Shown: positions 1-5,133 of the stretch, piece after piece
How the letters are laid out: every line of letters starts with the position of its first letter
Numbering within the stretch: position 1 is the stretch's first letter
From: Candidatus Eiseniibacteriota bacterium
GTDB lineage: Bacteria; JAFGKV01
DNA length: 5,792 nucleotides
Assembly: GCA_025453925.1 (NCBI GenBank)
Contig: JALOPK010000222.1
Coordinates: forward strand, 1-5,792
Direction of reading: 5' to 3'
The notes under the pieces: model-generated
Databases searched by the model: none
What the model was told of the DNA's origin: nothing
The model's input: only the letters and a program-made list of their open reading frames with translations
Translations under genes and position numbers: made by a program

Positions 1-505
1 ACCTGTCGCTGGATGAGAGTTCGGCCAGGGGTCGACGGTGTTTGGCTTTTGGGCTGTCGGCAGCATAGCCAAGCGGCGTGAACGCAATCGGCTCGACATC
101 CGCAGGGAGGCCCAGGACGGATCGCGCGGCCTGCGGATCGAAGGCACCAATCCAGCAGGTGCCGAGGCCGAGGTCCGTTGCCTGAAGCACGATGTGATCC
201 ATCACGATGGCGGTGTCGACGTCGTTGTAGTTCTTCCCGTCCTTGCGTTTCCAGTTCTTCGAGGGTGTGCCGATCACTGCCAGGATGATCGGTGCTGCCA
301 CGAACCAGTCGGCGTCGTAAATACGCTTCAGTTGTTCTTCGCGGCCTTGGGGCTTGATCACGATGATCTTGAACGGTTGGCGGTTGGCCGCAGTCGGGGC
401 AAGCCGGCCAGCCTCCAGGATCGCGTTGAGCTTCTGCTCTTCCACCGGAAGCGGGCGGTAGGCCCGCACACTGTAGCGCTTCCGTATCAGTTCCGCGAAG
501 TCCAT
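1..505 (-). CDS. Nitroreductase family protein (C-terminus beyond window)
   Basis: Probable FMN-dependent NAD(P)H nitroreductase-family oxidoreductase, expected to be a cytoplasmic homodimer; the substrate cannot be predicted. The reading frame runs from ATG at 505 off the left edge with no stop, giving 168 residues. Seen: the N-terminal FMN-phosphate signature RKRYSVRAY (residues 8-16), APTAANRQPFKIIVI (36-50), the middle segment DVDTAIVMDHIVLQAT (95-110) and GLGTCWIGAFDP (113-124). The end, TPLGYAADSPKAKHRRPLAE, is the usual C-terminal motif of the family, so only a few residues should be missing. The start is fixed by GGAGGT five bases upstream (511-516 on this strand). It diverges from the RDD gene and has no visible partner gene. 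The family assignment is firm; the exact reaction is unknown. Confidence 0.93.
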   Translation of the reverse strand, partial: MDFAELIRKRYSVRAYRPLPVEEQKLNAILEAGRLAPTAANRQPFKIIVIKPQGREEQLKRIYDADWFVAAPIILAVIGTPSKNWKRKDGKNYNDVDTAIVMDHIVLQATDLGLGTCWIGAFDPQAARSVLGLPADVEPIAFTPLGYAADSPKAKHRRPLAELSSSDR

Positions 506-638
506 TGTTGACCTCCTATTCGTGCTTCGGAAGAGCGCCGGAACGGCCCATCCATCCCAACTTCCCGGCGCACCAAGAGAACCACGGTCGTACATTCCGG
601 TCATACCCACCCAGGCAGGGCCGGATCCCGAGGATTGA

Positions 639-2564: not shown

Positions 2565-2591
2565 GCCTCCACTCGGGAAGGTCGCCCCAGG

Positions 2592-3335
2592 CTACTCTCT
2601 CTCTGCGAGCAGCGCCAGGGTGTGATCGAGGAGGTCGAGACCGCCAGGAGCACCGTGCCCGGGGATGATGATCCCAGCGTCCGGGAACCGGGCCAGGAGC
2701 GTCCGTATGGTACCCGGCCACCCCTGCAGATCCGCCTCTGCGGTATTCCCAAGGCTTTTCGCATGGGCTGATCGGACGAGACACCCGCCGAAGAGCACCT
2801 TCTGATCGGGCACCCATGCCACGATGTTGTCCGGCGTGTGACCGGGGCCTGCATGCAGGAGCAGTATCTCGCGGGCACCGATGGTCAGGGACATCGAATC
2901 GGCGAAGGCATTCTGGGGAATCTCCTTGCCGTCACGCTTCGCAAACTCGAGGGTCTGGTTCAGTGCGTACGACGTGGCGCCCATGCGATGGGCAGCGCCC
3001 AGACCGCCGATGCAGTCATCGTGGGCGTGGCACGGTACGGCGACAATCACCCGCGCGTGCAGGGAATCCGCGAGCCAGGCACCCAGAACCTCCATCTGTT
3101 CGTTCGTCCACGGCGTGTCGACAACCATTGCAGCAGAGTCGCTCACCACGATCATGCCGTTGGCCGGGGTGTTCCCGTACGTGGGGAGATTCTTGTATGA
3201 TGTGTGGCGCCATACGCCCGGCGCCAGTTGTTCCACGGCCAGATCTGGCCGAAGCTCAACAACGTCTCGACTGGCGGTGCTCGACACAGCCAGGGAGGCG
3301 AGAGCTGCAACCATCGCAACAGAACCCATTGACAT
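2592..3335 (-). CDS. Subclass B1-like metallo-beta-lactamase
   Basis: A metallo-beta-lactamase-fold zinc hydrolase, 247 residues from ATG 3335, probably exported to the periplasm; the predicted reaction is beta-lactam ring hydrolysis. Seen: a signal-like N-terminus (VAMVAALASLAVSSTA, 6-21), TPANGMIVV (56-64), VDTPWTN (72-78), and the zinc motif CHAHDDCIGGLG with H103, H105 and D107 (standard H116, H118, D120). Further on are GPGHTPDNIVAWVP with H166 (H196), FGGCLV with C185 (C221), LGN with N197 (N233) and IPGHG with H227 (H263). This is the complete B1 two-zinc set. C108 after the Asp and the downstream pattern recall CcrA/CfiA and BcII. R188 replaces the Lys224 common in B1. An in-frame GTG at 3338 has better spacing from the AGGAGG and is an alternative start. 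A B1-fold relative with another substrate is possible. Confidence 0.88.
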   Translation of the reverse strand: MSMGSVAMVAALASLAVSSTASRDVVELRPDLAVEQLAPGVWRHTSYKNLPTYGNTPANGMIVVSDSAAMVVDTPWTNEQMEVLGAWLADSLHARVIVAVPCHAHDDCIGGLGAAHRMGATSYALNQTLEFAKRDGKEIPQNAFADSMSLTIGAREILLLHAGPGHTPDNIVAWVPDQKVLFGGCLVRSAHAKSLGNTAEADLQGWPGTIRTLLARFPDAGIIIPGHGAPGGLDLLDHTLALLAERE

Positions 3336-3688
3336 CACGGCAGGAGCCTCCTGGCTGAGAGATGGGAGCGTGGATCGAGCAATCACCACCCAACAGGTTA
3401 CACGGGCGGCTGGCTTCTGCAACGGGTCCAGGTGCCACGCTCTCTGTGGGCGGTGCGCGTTCGATGGCACGCCCGCGGATCAATCGCAGGAGACGTTTCC
3501 TCTTGCGAACGGCGTGGCCGTCAAATCTCCTACCGTCGTGGACGTGCGCTTCGCTGGGTCACACTCTTGGCGCGGTCAGGCTGTCCTTGCGTACCCTGGA
3601 CACCTTTGAACTCCTGGCTGGCGCTTTCCGACGATTCGTGCATCTTCATGGCGCCCACCTGCCGCGCGGATCTTGGGAGGTTTGAGCC
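3336..3688. other. Divergent intergenic region, no convincing gene
   Basis: This stretch of about 350 bases lies between the divergent metallo-beta-lactamase and the effector-binding protein, so promoters for both should be here. On the minus strand, TTGCAG (3422-3417) and TAACCT (3400-3395), 16 bases apart, form a weak promoter candidate about 60 bases before the lactamase start. On the plus strand, TTTGAAC near 3605-3611 is a poor -35 candidate without a clear -10. GGAGGT at 3676-3681, seven bases before ATG 3689, is the ribosome binding site of the next gene. Several open frames cross the region but are arginine-rich, lack ribosome binding sites and resemble no protein I know. Confidence 0.5.
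3347..3352 (-). promoter_or_regulatory. Ribosome binding site for the metallo-beta-lactamase
   Basis: On the minus strand AGGAGG occupies 3352-3347. It is 11 bases from ATG 3335 and 8 bases from the in-frame GTG at 3338-3336. It rules out the much longer in-frame start at 3470, whose extra residues look non-coding. Confidence 0.65.
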
Positions 3689-4756
3689 ATGTCATTGAAG
3701 GAAAAGGGAATCGAGCACAAGGAGCTGGATGCCACGCTGGTGGCGACCACACGGTTCGTGTTAGGGGAACGGGAAGAGCTGGCTGGCGTCTTCGCGAGAA
3801 TGGCCCAGGCGATTCCGCCGGAGGCCATTGCCGGCCCTCCTTTTGCCATTATCAACTTCATCACGACCGTGAAGGAAGGCTCCGACGTCGAGGCCGGGTT
3901 TCCGGTGAACCGGGTAATCGAGGGGGATGGGATCAGCACTCGGCTGCTCCCCGCGATGCGGGTCTTGTCGCTGGTACATGAAGGCCCCCTTGATGGCGTT
4001 GGGGGGACGTACCGGCCCCTGTTCAGCTCGGCCTATGCCAATGGCCTCATCTCAGACGAGTTCTGTCGTGAGGTCTGCCATGATCTTTCGGACCCTGCCT
4101 CATGCCGTGTCGAACTGCAGTTCGTGATCCATGACTGGGACCGGTTGTTCAGAGGGAATCTGGATCGCGTGCTTGGCACGACGGCGATGCAGGCCATCAT
4201 GGCGGGTCATGACGCCTTGAACGTGGAGTCGGCCGTCGATGCGCGCTTCACGTGGTCGAAGGGCGCCGTGGAGCGGCTGGACAACTCAGCCTCGGAATTC
4301 GAGAAGTACGAGATCCTCTCCCGGTGTGCCCACGTGTTTCCAGCCGAGCATGTGGAACGGCTCAGGGTTGTTTACGACGAGGCGAAGGAAGTCACTGGTG
4401 ACGGGCTGCTCGCCGTGGATGCGGTCCTGGAGTTCATGGAGAAAGATCCGGTCTGGGGAAGGCGACCCTATCGGGAGGGGCGGACGATTTTCGCCACCAA
4501 GAATCCCCGGGACCCCAAGGCGTTCGAAGCGGCATCCACGCCCGAAGAGAAGCGGAAGGCGGCCTGCTTCTGCCCCATCATCCGCCAGCATCTGGAGAAG
4601 GGAATGTCACCGACCTTCTGCTATTGCTCGTCGGGCTGGGAGCGCCGTCAGTGGGAGGGGGCCATCGGGCGCCCCGTGCGGGTCGACGTGGTCAAGACGC
4701 TGCTGCGCGGCGACGATCACTGCCAGTTCGCTATCCATCTGCCGGAGGATCTCTAG
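3689..4756 (+). CDS. GyrI-like effector-binding domain fused to a Cys-rich (DUF6144/V4R-like) domain
   Basis: A 355-residue soluble protein, probably a cytoplasmic small-molecule binder. Residues about 8-150 read as a GyrI-like/AraC-type effector-binding domain: an IEHKELDATLVATTRFVL opening strand, FPVNRVIEGDGISTRLLPAMRV, VHEGPLDGVGGTYRPLFS and a closing VELQFVIHDW. Residues about 205-355 form a second, cysteine-rich domain: RCAHVFP (C213), CFCPII (C293, C295), CYCSSGWERRQWEGAIGRPV (C311, C313) and VVKTLLRGDDHCQFAIHLP (C345). From memory this ending resembles DUF6144 or V4R / L-2-amino-thiazoline-4-carboxylate hydrolase-like proteins, a tentative match. There is no helix-turn-helix, signal peptide or membrane segment, so it is not an ordinary regulator. 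The two CxC pairs could bind a metal or a thiol ligand. The start is supported by GGAGGT seven bases upstream. No operon partner is visible. Confidence 0.85.
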   Translation: MSLKEKGIEHKELDATLVATTRFVLGEREELAGVFARMAQAIPPEAIAGPPFAIINFITTVKEGSDVEAGFPVNRVIEGDGISTRLLPAMRVLSLVHEGPLDGVGGTYRPLFSSAYANGLISDEFCREVCHDLSDPASCRVELQFVIHDWDRLFRGNLDRVLGTTAMQAIMAGHDALNVESAVDARFTWSKGAVERLDNSASEFEKYEILSRCAHVFPAEHVERLRVVYDEAKEVTGDGLLAVDAVLEFMEKDPVWGRRPYREGRTIFATKNPRDPKAFEAASTPEEKRKAACFCPIIRQHLEKGMSPTFCYCSSGWERRQWEGAIGRPVRVDVVKTLLRGDDHCQFAIHLPEDL

Positions 4757-4947: not shown

Positions 4948-5005
4948 GTTGGAGCGTTGCATCAGGCGAGGAGGTGGCTGCATTCGCGGCTGACGCCGCT
5001 CCAAC
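4948..5005. repeat. REP-like palindrome 1 (GTTGGAGCG type)
   Basis: The outer arms GTTGGAGCG (4948-4956) and CGCTCCAAC (4997-5005) pair perfectly. Pairing continues inward with a 2-base bulge and a few mismatches to about 4972/4983, leaving a loop of about 10 bases. It is homologous to palindrome 2 downstream. The right half (GCATTCGCGGCTGACGCCGC) is the best-conserved part. Confidence 0.65.
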
Positions 5006-5128
5006 GTTGGGGAGTTTGGTGCACAGGCGGCGTAGGAGCGCCGTGAGGCGCGAACAAGGAGCTGCATTCGCGGCTGATGCCGCTCCTACGTTGGGGAATG
5101 TGGTGCACAGGCGGCGTAGGAGCCCCGT
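4977..5128. repeat. Two direct copies of a 68-base repeat, 84-base period
   Basis: Positions 4977-5044 and 5061-5128 match at 63 of 68 positions by direct alignment, separated by 16 bases. Each copy holds the right arm of one palindrome (GCATTCGCGGCTGA...), a conserved linker (TGGTGCACAGGCGGCG) and the left arm of the next (GTAGGAGC.CCGT). The pattern is a head-to-tail array of one palindromic element plus linker rather than a coding repeat. Confidence 0.8.
5031..5090. repeat. REP-like palindrome 2 (CGTAGGAGCG type)
   Basis: Arms 5031-5054 and 5067-5090 pair at 20 of 24 positions around a 12-base loop. The ends are CGTAGGAGCG and CGCTCCTACG, and the inner ends are GCGAA and TTCGC. The motif GTAGGAGCGGC with GCCGCGAA is familiar from REP-type repeats of proteobacteria. 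The left arm of a third unit starts at 5115 but its right arm is missing. Confidence 0.7.
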
Positions 5129-5133
5129 CAGTC

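Follow-up and report, generated by a model that had tools for sequence, protein, structure and literature searches.

What does the open reading frame at positions 2592-3335 of this DNA encode, and how did the gene come to lie where it does? The window, by which we mean the whole 5,792-nucleotide stretch that was analysed, is contig C244 of a draft MAG, G000 (502 contigs, 82% complete, 2.9% contamination). We compared it with two genomes of the same phylum: G001, from the same genus (94% complete), and G002, from the same family (98% complete). Our reading, to which we assign a probability of about 0.85, is that the frame encodes an exported di-zinc subclass B1 beta-lactamase, probably hydrolysing beta-lactams, and that acquisition of its gene by the window's lineage is the simplest history. 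The features of the gene are the following.

2592..3335, minus strand: subclass B1 metallo-beta-lactamase, 247 aa, complete; NF033088 above cut-off, fold match to CcrA
3347..3352, minus strand: AGGAGG, 11 nt ahead of the ATG and likely the ribosome-binding site, read from the sequence
3273..3335, minus strand: residues 1-21, read by eye as a probable signal peptide, no lipobox; the structure model has low pLDDT here
3012..3032, minus strand: CHAHDDC motif, with Cys115, ligands H116, H118 and D120, then Cys121 (alignment of 117 B1 proteins)
2838..2840, minus strand: H166, zinc ligand H196 (alignments)
2781..2783, minus strand: C185, zinc ligand C221, with R224 and N233 following (alignments)
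2655..2657, minus strand: H227, zinc ligand H263 (alignments)

The reading frame runs from an ATG through 247 codons to a stop, and its hydrophobic N-terminus looks, by eye, like a signal peptide. Only three cysteines (115, 121 and 221) can be read in the whole protein, all of them in the active site. Against NF033088, the NCBIfam equivalog model for subclass B1, the protein scored 254.3 bits (E 8.8e-76; cut-off 200), so that a chance match is excluded. On the same model CfiA2 reached 285.1 bits, DIM 262.9, VIM-2 250.6 and IMP-1 249.8; the window protein thus scores like proven carbapenemases. None of the cut-offs of named B1 families was reached among the matches listed, the DYB model (NF045731) giving 196.5 bits and the CfiA (CcrA) model (NF000322) 195.7 bits, each with 550 required. 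The protein is an additional member of the well-known B1 enzymes, and it fits none of the named B1 families matched.

To the sequence evidence we added a predicted structure. From 25 homologues AlphaFold2 gave a model with a mean pLDDT of 93.8 and a pTM of 0.87. CcrA gave the top PDB sequence matches of the protein and ranked first for the model in Foldseek, and in VIA-align 222 residues of the model superposed on CcrA with a deviation of 0.8 A (Z 38.9), closely followed by CIM-2, CJO-1, a Dyadobacter enzyme, ECV-1, BcII and MYO-1. As the best structure matches are B1 enzymes, the model points to a B1-type metallo-beta-lactamase fold.

The active site is consistent with this assignment. H103, H105, D107, H166, C185 and H227 align with the zinc ligands of CfiA2, NDM-1, IMP-1, VIM-2 and DIM, and in an alignment of 117 B1 proteins they fall on the standard ligands H116, H118 and H196 and D120, C221 and H263, as in all but two of the 117 sequences. 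D84, N70 and N233 are present as well, and the substrate-binding loop carries the basic residue of B1 enzymes at 224, here Arg224, together with Asn233. The preliminary description had called the gene a complete B1 metallo-beta-lactamase with all six ligands and the LGN and PGHG motifs, and this description stands: the frame is complete, the family model and the CcrA-like fold of the model agree, and both motifs are there. A common fold alone is no proof of reaction; with the ligands and the loop kept, beta-lactam hydrolysis is the best-supported function.

The same description had listed as unusual the Cys after the metal-binding Asp, an extra Asp and Arg224. All three exist in the protein, yet they are ordinary and occur in other environmental or clinical B1 enzymes. 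In the 117-protein set, a biased sample drawn mostly from one pattern scan and one phylum search, Cys121 was found in 61 proteins, Asp119 in 42 (VIM-2 among them) and Arg224 in seven. Arg224 is also found in SHD-1, a B1 enzyme of environmental origin with demonstrated carbapenemase activity (PMC7443720). Judged on the aligned residues, the true oddity is Cys115, which had not been on that list: it appears in the window protein only (1/117), the position being Thr in 93 sequences and Asn in 18. Its codon is TGC, one base from a Ser codon and more than one base from any Thr codon, which rules out one misread base in a Thr codon as its origin. Position 115 belongs, with 69, 70, 84, 121 and 262, to a hydrogen-bond network under the zinc site; this network reportedly influences how zinc is bound and which substrates are preferred (PMC3879351; PMC7443720). 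Cys115 may alter zinc binding by this route, and it offers a natural variant for studying second-sphere control of zinc binding.

Two further homologues met during the comparison deserve a record of their own. In Hymenobacter mucosus (L154, near 4001-4723) Ser221 and Asn263 replace two zinc ligands, and this homologue is perhaps inactive or altered. In a Rikenellaceae MAG (L103, 4001-4723) a stop codon lies within the matched B1 stretch, and the reading frame ends before ligand C221.

Next, we placed the protein among its relatives. A scan of named genomes left 80 B1 loci, the best of them in Phycisphaerae MAGs (43-45% identity in the best tblastn segment), then in Bacteroidota, a Limisphaerales MAG and others. 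Identity of the window protein to any B1 protein found was 31-45%. The hosts of B1 enzymes named in PMC5637372 are Bacteroidetes, Firmicutes and Proteobacteria; our relatives also came from Phycisphaerae, Limisphaerales, Riflebacteria, Calditrichota and Ignavibacteriales records. In a tree of 52 rows the window protein was, on a long branch, sister to four Phycisphaerae proteins (96/75). The preliminary description had proposed a tree as a check on membership of the B1 clade. Our best tree did put the protein among B1 proteins, on the side of CcrA and other Bacteroidota enzymes (93/85), but under AU tests neither a position at the base, next to the outgroup and the fusion proteins described below (p 0.384), nor a union with the CcrA group (p 0.315) was rejected. 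The deep branching of this tree is accordingly weak.

The distribution of B1 genes over the cut-off is scattered: they were present in 5 of 386 genomes from a mostly domain-wide draw, the window's own included, and in 59 of 193 genomes from the phylum of genome G030. Named Myxococcus and Pyxidicoccus records group with sequences of the latter in the tree, which suggests that this phylum is Myxococcota. Single-protein scans of genome contigs and viral contigs confirmed no relative, and a literature search on B1 enzymes in candidate phyla returned nothing specific. The window protein adds one further B1 lineage, from a sparsely sampled phylum (three genomes compared here), and it stands far from mobile resistance genes, the clinical enzymes compared being about 31-38% identical to it.

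The genus also holds a second kind of B1-like protein. In G000 (contig C22; L042:4287-6041, minus strand) and G001 (contig C140; L043:2-1333, plus strand) a polysaccharide deacetylase (PF01522) is fused to a B1-like metallo-beta-lactamase domain. As the G001 contig ends within its copy, Pfam confirms the metallo-beta-lactamase part only there. The B1-like domain scored 156 bits on NF033088, under the cut-off of 200, and its best named model was SPM (139 bits). This NodB-B1-like fusion was not seen in other genomes of the 386-genome draw, a literature search on it found no paper, and it may be more unusual than the window enzyme.

How the gene came to its present place was approached through its neighbours, compared with contig C240 of G001.

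2..508, minus strand: nitroreductase-family protein, reaching the contig end; PF00881; 83% identical in G001:C240
805..1305, plus strand: RDD-family membrane protein; PF06271; 74% identical in G001:C240
1413..2146, plus strand: alpha/beta hydrolase, probable GTG start; PF20408; 65% identical in G001:C240
2367..2564, plus strand: conserved 65-aa reading frame, bordering the slot at its low-coordinate end; the G001:C240 orthologue is 59% identical
2565..3617, edges approximate, no strand: variable slot, occupied here by the B1 gene and in G001:C240 by an SGNH/GDSL hydrolase gene (homology comparison)
3689..4756, plus strand: GyrI-like domain protein of 355 aa, bordering the slot at its high-coordinate end; the G001:C240 orthologue is 81% identical

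The five flanking genes keep their order in G001, and between the 65-aa frame and the GyrI-like gene homology stops at about 2538 and restarts at 3618. In place of the B1 gene, and in the same orientation, G001 carries a gene for a 378-aa SGNH/GDSL hydrolase. The rest of G001 and the whole of G002 likewise yielded no B1 gene over the cut-off. The SGNH protein has a 61% identical match in G002 (the best in G000 reaches only 43%), and for this reason its gene looks older. The simplest account, drawn from three genomes of which one is 82% complete, is that the SGNH gene is the older occupant and that the window's lineage acquired the B1 gene.

The plain chromosomal context that had been proposed is borne out by the synteny with G001:C240 and by the lack of any recognised integron or insertion sequence; family model, structure model, ligand alignment and synteny together support a complete enzyme of subclass B1 whose chromosomal setting is ordinary. 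The idea that went with it, a resident gene, is not supported, as the gene is missing from the G001 slot and neither comparison genome gave a B1 gene over the cut-off. The gene might still be old in the phylum and have been lost in G001 and G002. Its GC by codon position resembles that of its neighbours, and neither an integrase or transposase nor an attC-like site or flanking repeat could be recognised beside it, so that a recent arrival is not indicated. These observations would suit long residence, which we nevertheless consider rather unlikely given two comparison genomes of 94% and 98% completeness without the gene and an SGNH gene that looks older in the slot. Gain in the window's lineage is the reading that we keep.

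Other settings for the gene were tried and discarded. As an integron cassette it fails, with no TIGR02249 match on the contig and GTTRRRY no commoner than chance and absent just downstream of the gene. An operon partner was not seen either, the B1 gene running against its neighbours. Neither a transposase nor a partner resistance gene was recognised on the contig, the window has no Rfam match to a structured RNA, and the reading-frame lists of the Phycisphaerae and Limisphaerales B1 loci show no obvious common neighbour. Elsewhere in the three genomes, C-terminal pieces of the TIGR02249 integron integrase lie at contig ends: the end of G000:C450 (L189), the starts of G001:C130 and G001:C22 (L188 and L190) and the end of G002:C125 (L187). 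Since all three genomes have such pieces at contig ends, integrons probably exist in the phylum and break assemblies.

Two repeats were noted on the contig. The intergenic repeat at positions 2178-2370 is dispersed through G000 and G001, where its many copies are about 76-91% identical, and it could fold into a strong hairpin. At roughly the corresponding place G001 has an NTP_transf_5/AbiEii-like gene (L065:3349-3876). At positions 4948-5131 two 82-nt units, 87% identical and containing inverted repeats, stand in tandem, and similar units occur in G001 and G000.

The function could also differ from the one that we propose. The protein may have a B1 fold and zinc site and yet act by nature mainly on another substrate, for instance a lactone or an ester in the cell envelope, its beta-lactamase activity being weak or absent. 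Cys115, unique among the 117 proteins, the hydrolase of another fold in the slot of the sister species and the deacetylase fusion in the same genomes lean this way. Against them stand an equivalog score as high as that of proven carbapenemases, the retention of every ligand and of the substrate-binding loop, and nearest solved structures that are active B1 beta-lactamases, which together make this alternative improbable. A broader speculation, one that we hold to be highly improbable, joins the slot exchanged with SGNH, the fusion and a tuning of the zinc site by Cys115: B1-type enzymes of this phylum would serve the cell envelope besides or instead of drug defence. Finally, that the contig is a contaminant, with host and slot misassigned, is hardly credible and was rejected: the draft has 502 contigs and 2.9% contamination and this contig is short, but the conserved order of the five flanking genes in G001 (59-83% protein identity) and the dispersed repeats common to G000 and G001 indicate that the contig is genuine.

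For the preferred reading, an exported B1 beta-lactamase, the family suggests how the enzyme would work. The protein would be exported to the periplasm and bind two zinc ions; a zinc-bound hydroxide would attack the beta-lactam carbonyl and open the ring, with Arg224 holding the substrate carboxylate. Penicillins, cephalosporins and carbapenems would probably be hydrolysed, and the native use would most likely be defence against environmental beta-lactams. When predicted B1 genes were expressed in E. coli, 18 of the 21 tested hydrolysed imipenem, and the negative ones all came from the Bacteroidetes CcrA group (PMC5637372), the side of the tree on which the window protein falls. These negatives, the unique Cys115 in a network that affects zinc binding, the identity of only 31-45% to any B1 protein found and the weak deep branching speak against the preferred reading. 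On the whole the window protein probably hydrolyses beta-lactams.

Among known systems, CcrA/CfiA of Bacteroides fragilis (37-39% identical) shares with the window protein the fold, the six zinc ligands, Cys121 and Asn233. CfiA2 differs in having Asn115 and Lys224 against Cys115 and Arg224, and the window protein stays below the cut-off of the CfiA family model. The nearest relatives found are the B1 proteins of Phycisphaerae MAGs (L098-L101; 41-45% identical), its sister group in the tree; L098, the one scanned, exceeds the B1 cut-off (259.1). Unlike the window protein they have Thr115 and Lys224, three of them have an N-terminal Cys, possibly a lipobox, that it lacks, and the surroundings of their genes look different. 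MYX-type enzymes of myxobacteria, about 37-43% identical, likewise reside on environmental chromosomes, but they form a separate clade, and at position 121 the ones examined carry Arg or similar instead of the Cys of the window protein. SHD-1 shares Arg224 and departs at Tyr233 and Arg121, residues taken from PMC7443720, against Asn233 and Cys121 in the window protein. VIM-2, IMP-1 and NDM-1 (31-36% identical) have the same subclass and ligands, VIM-2 also Asp119. Their genes travel on plasmids or integrons, unlike the chromosomal gene of the window.
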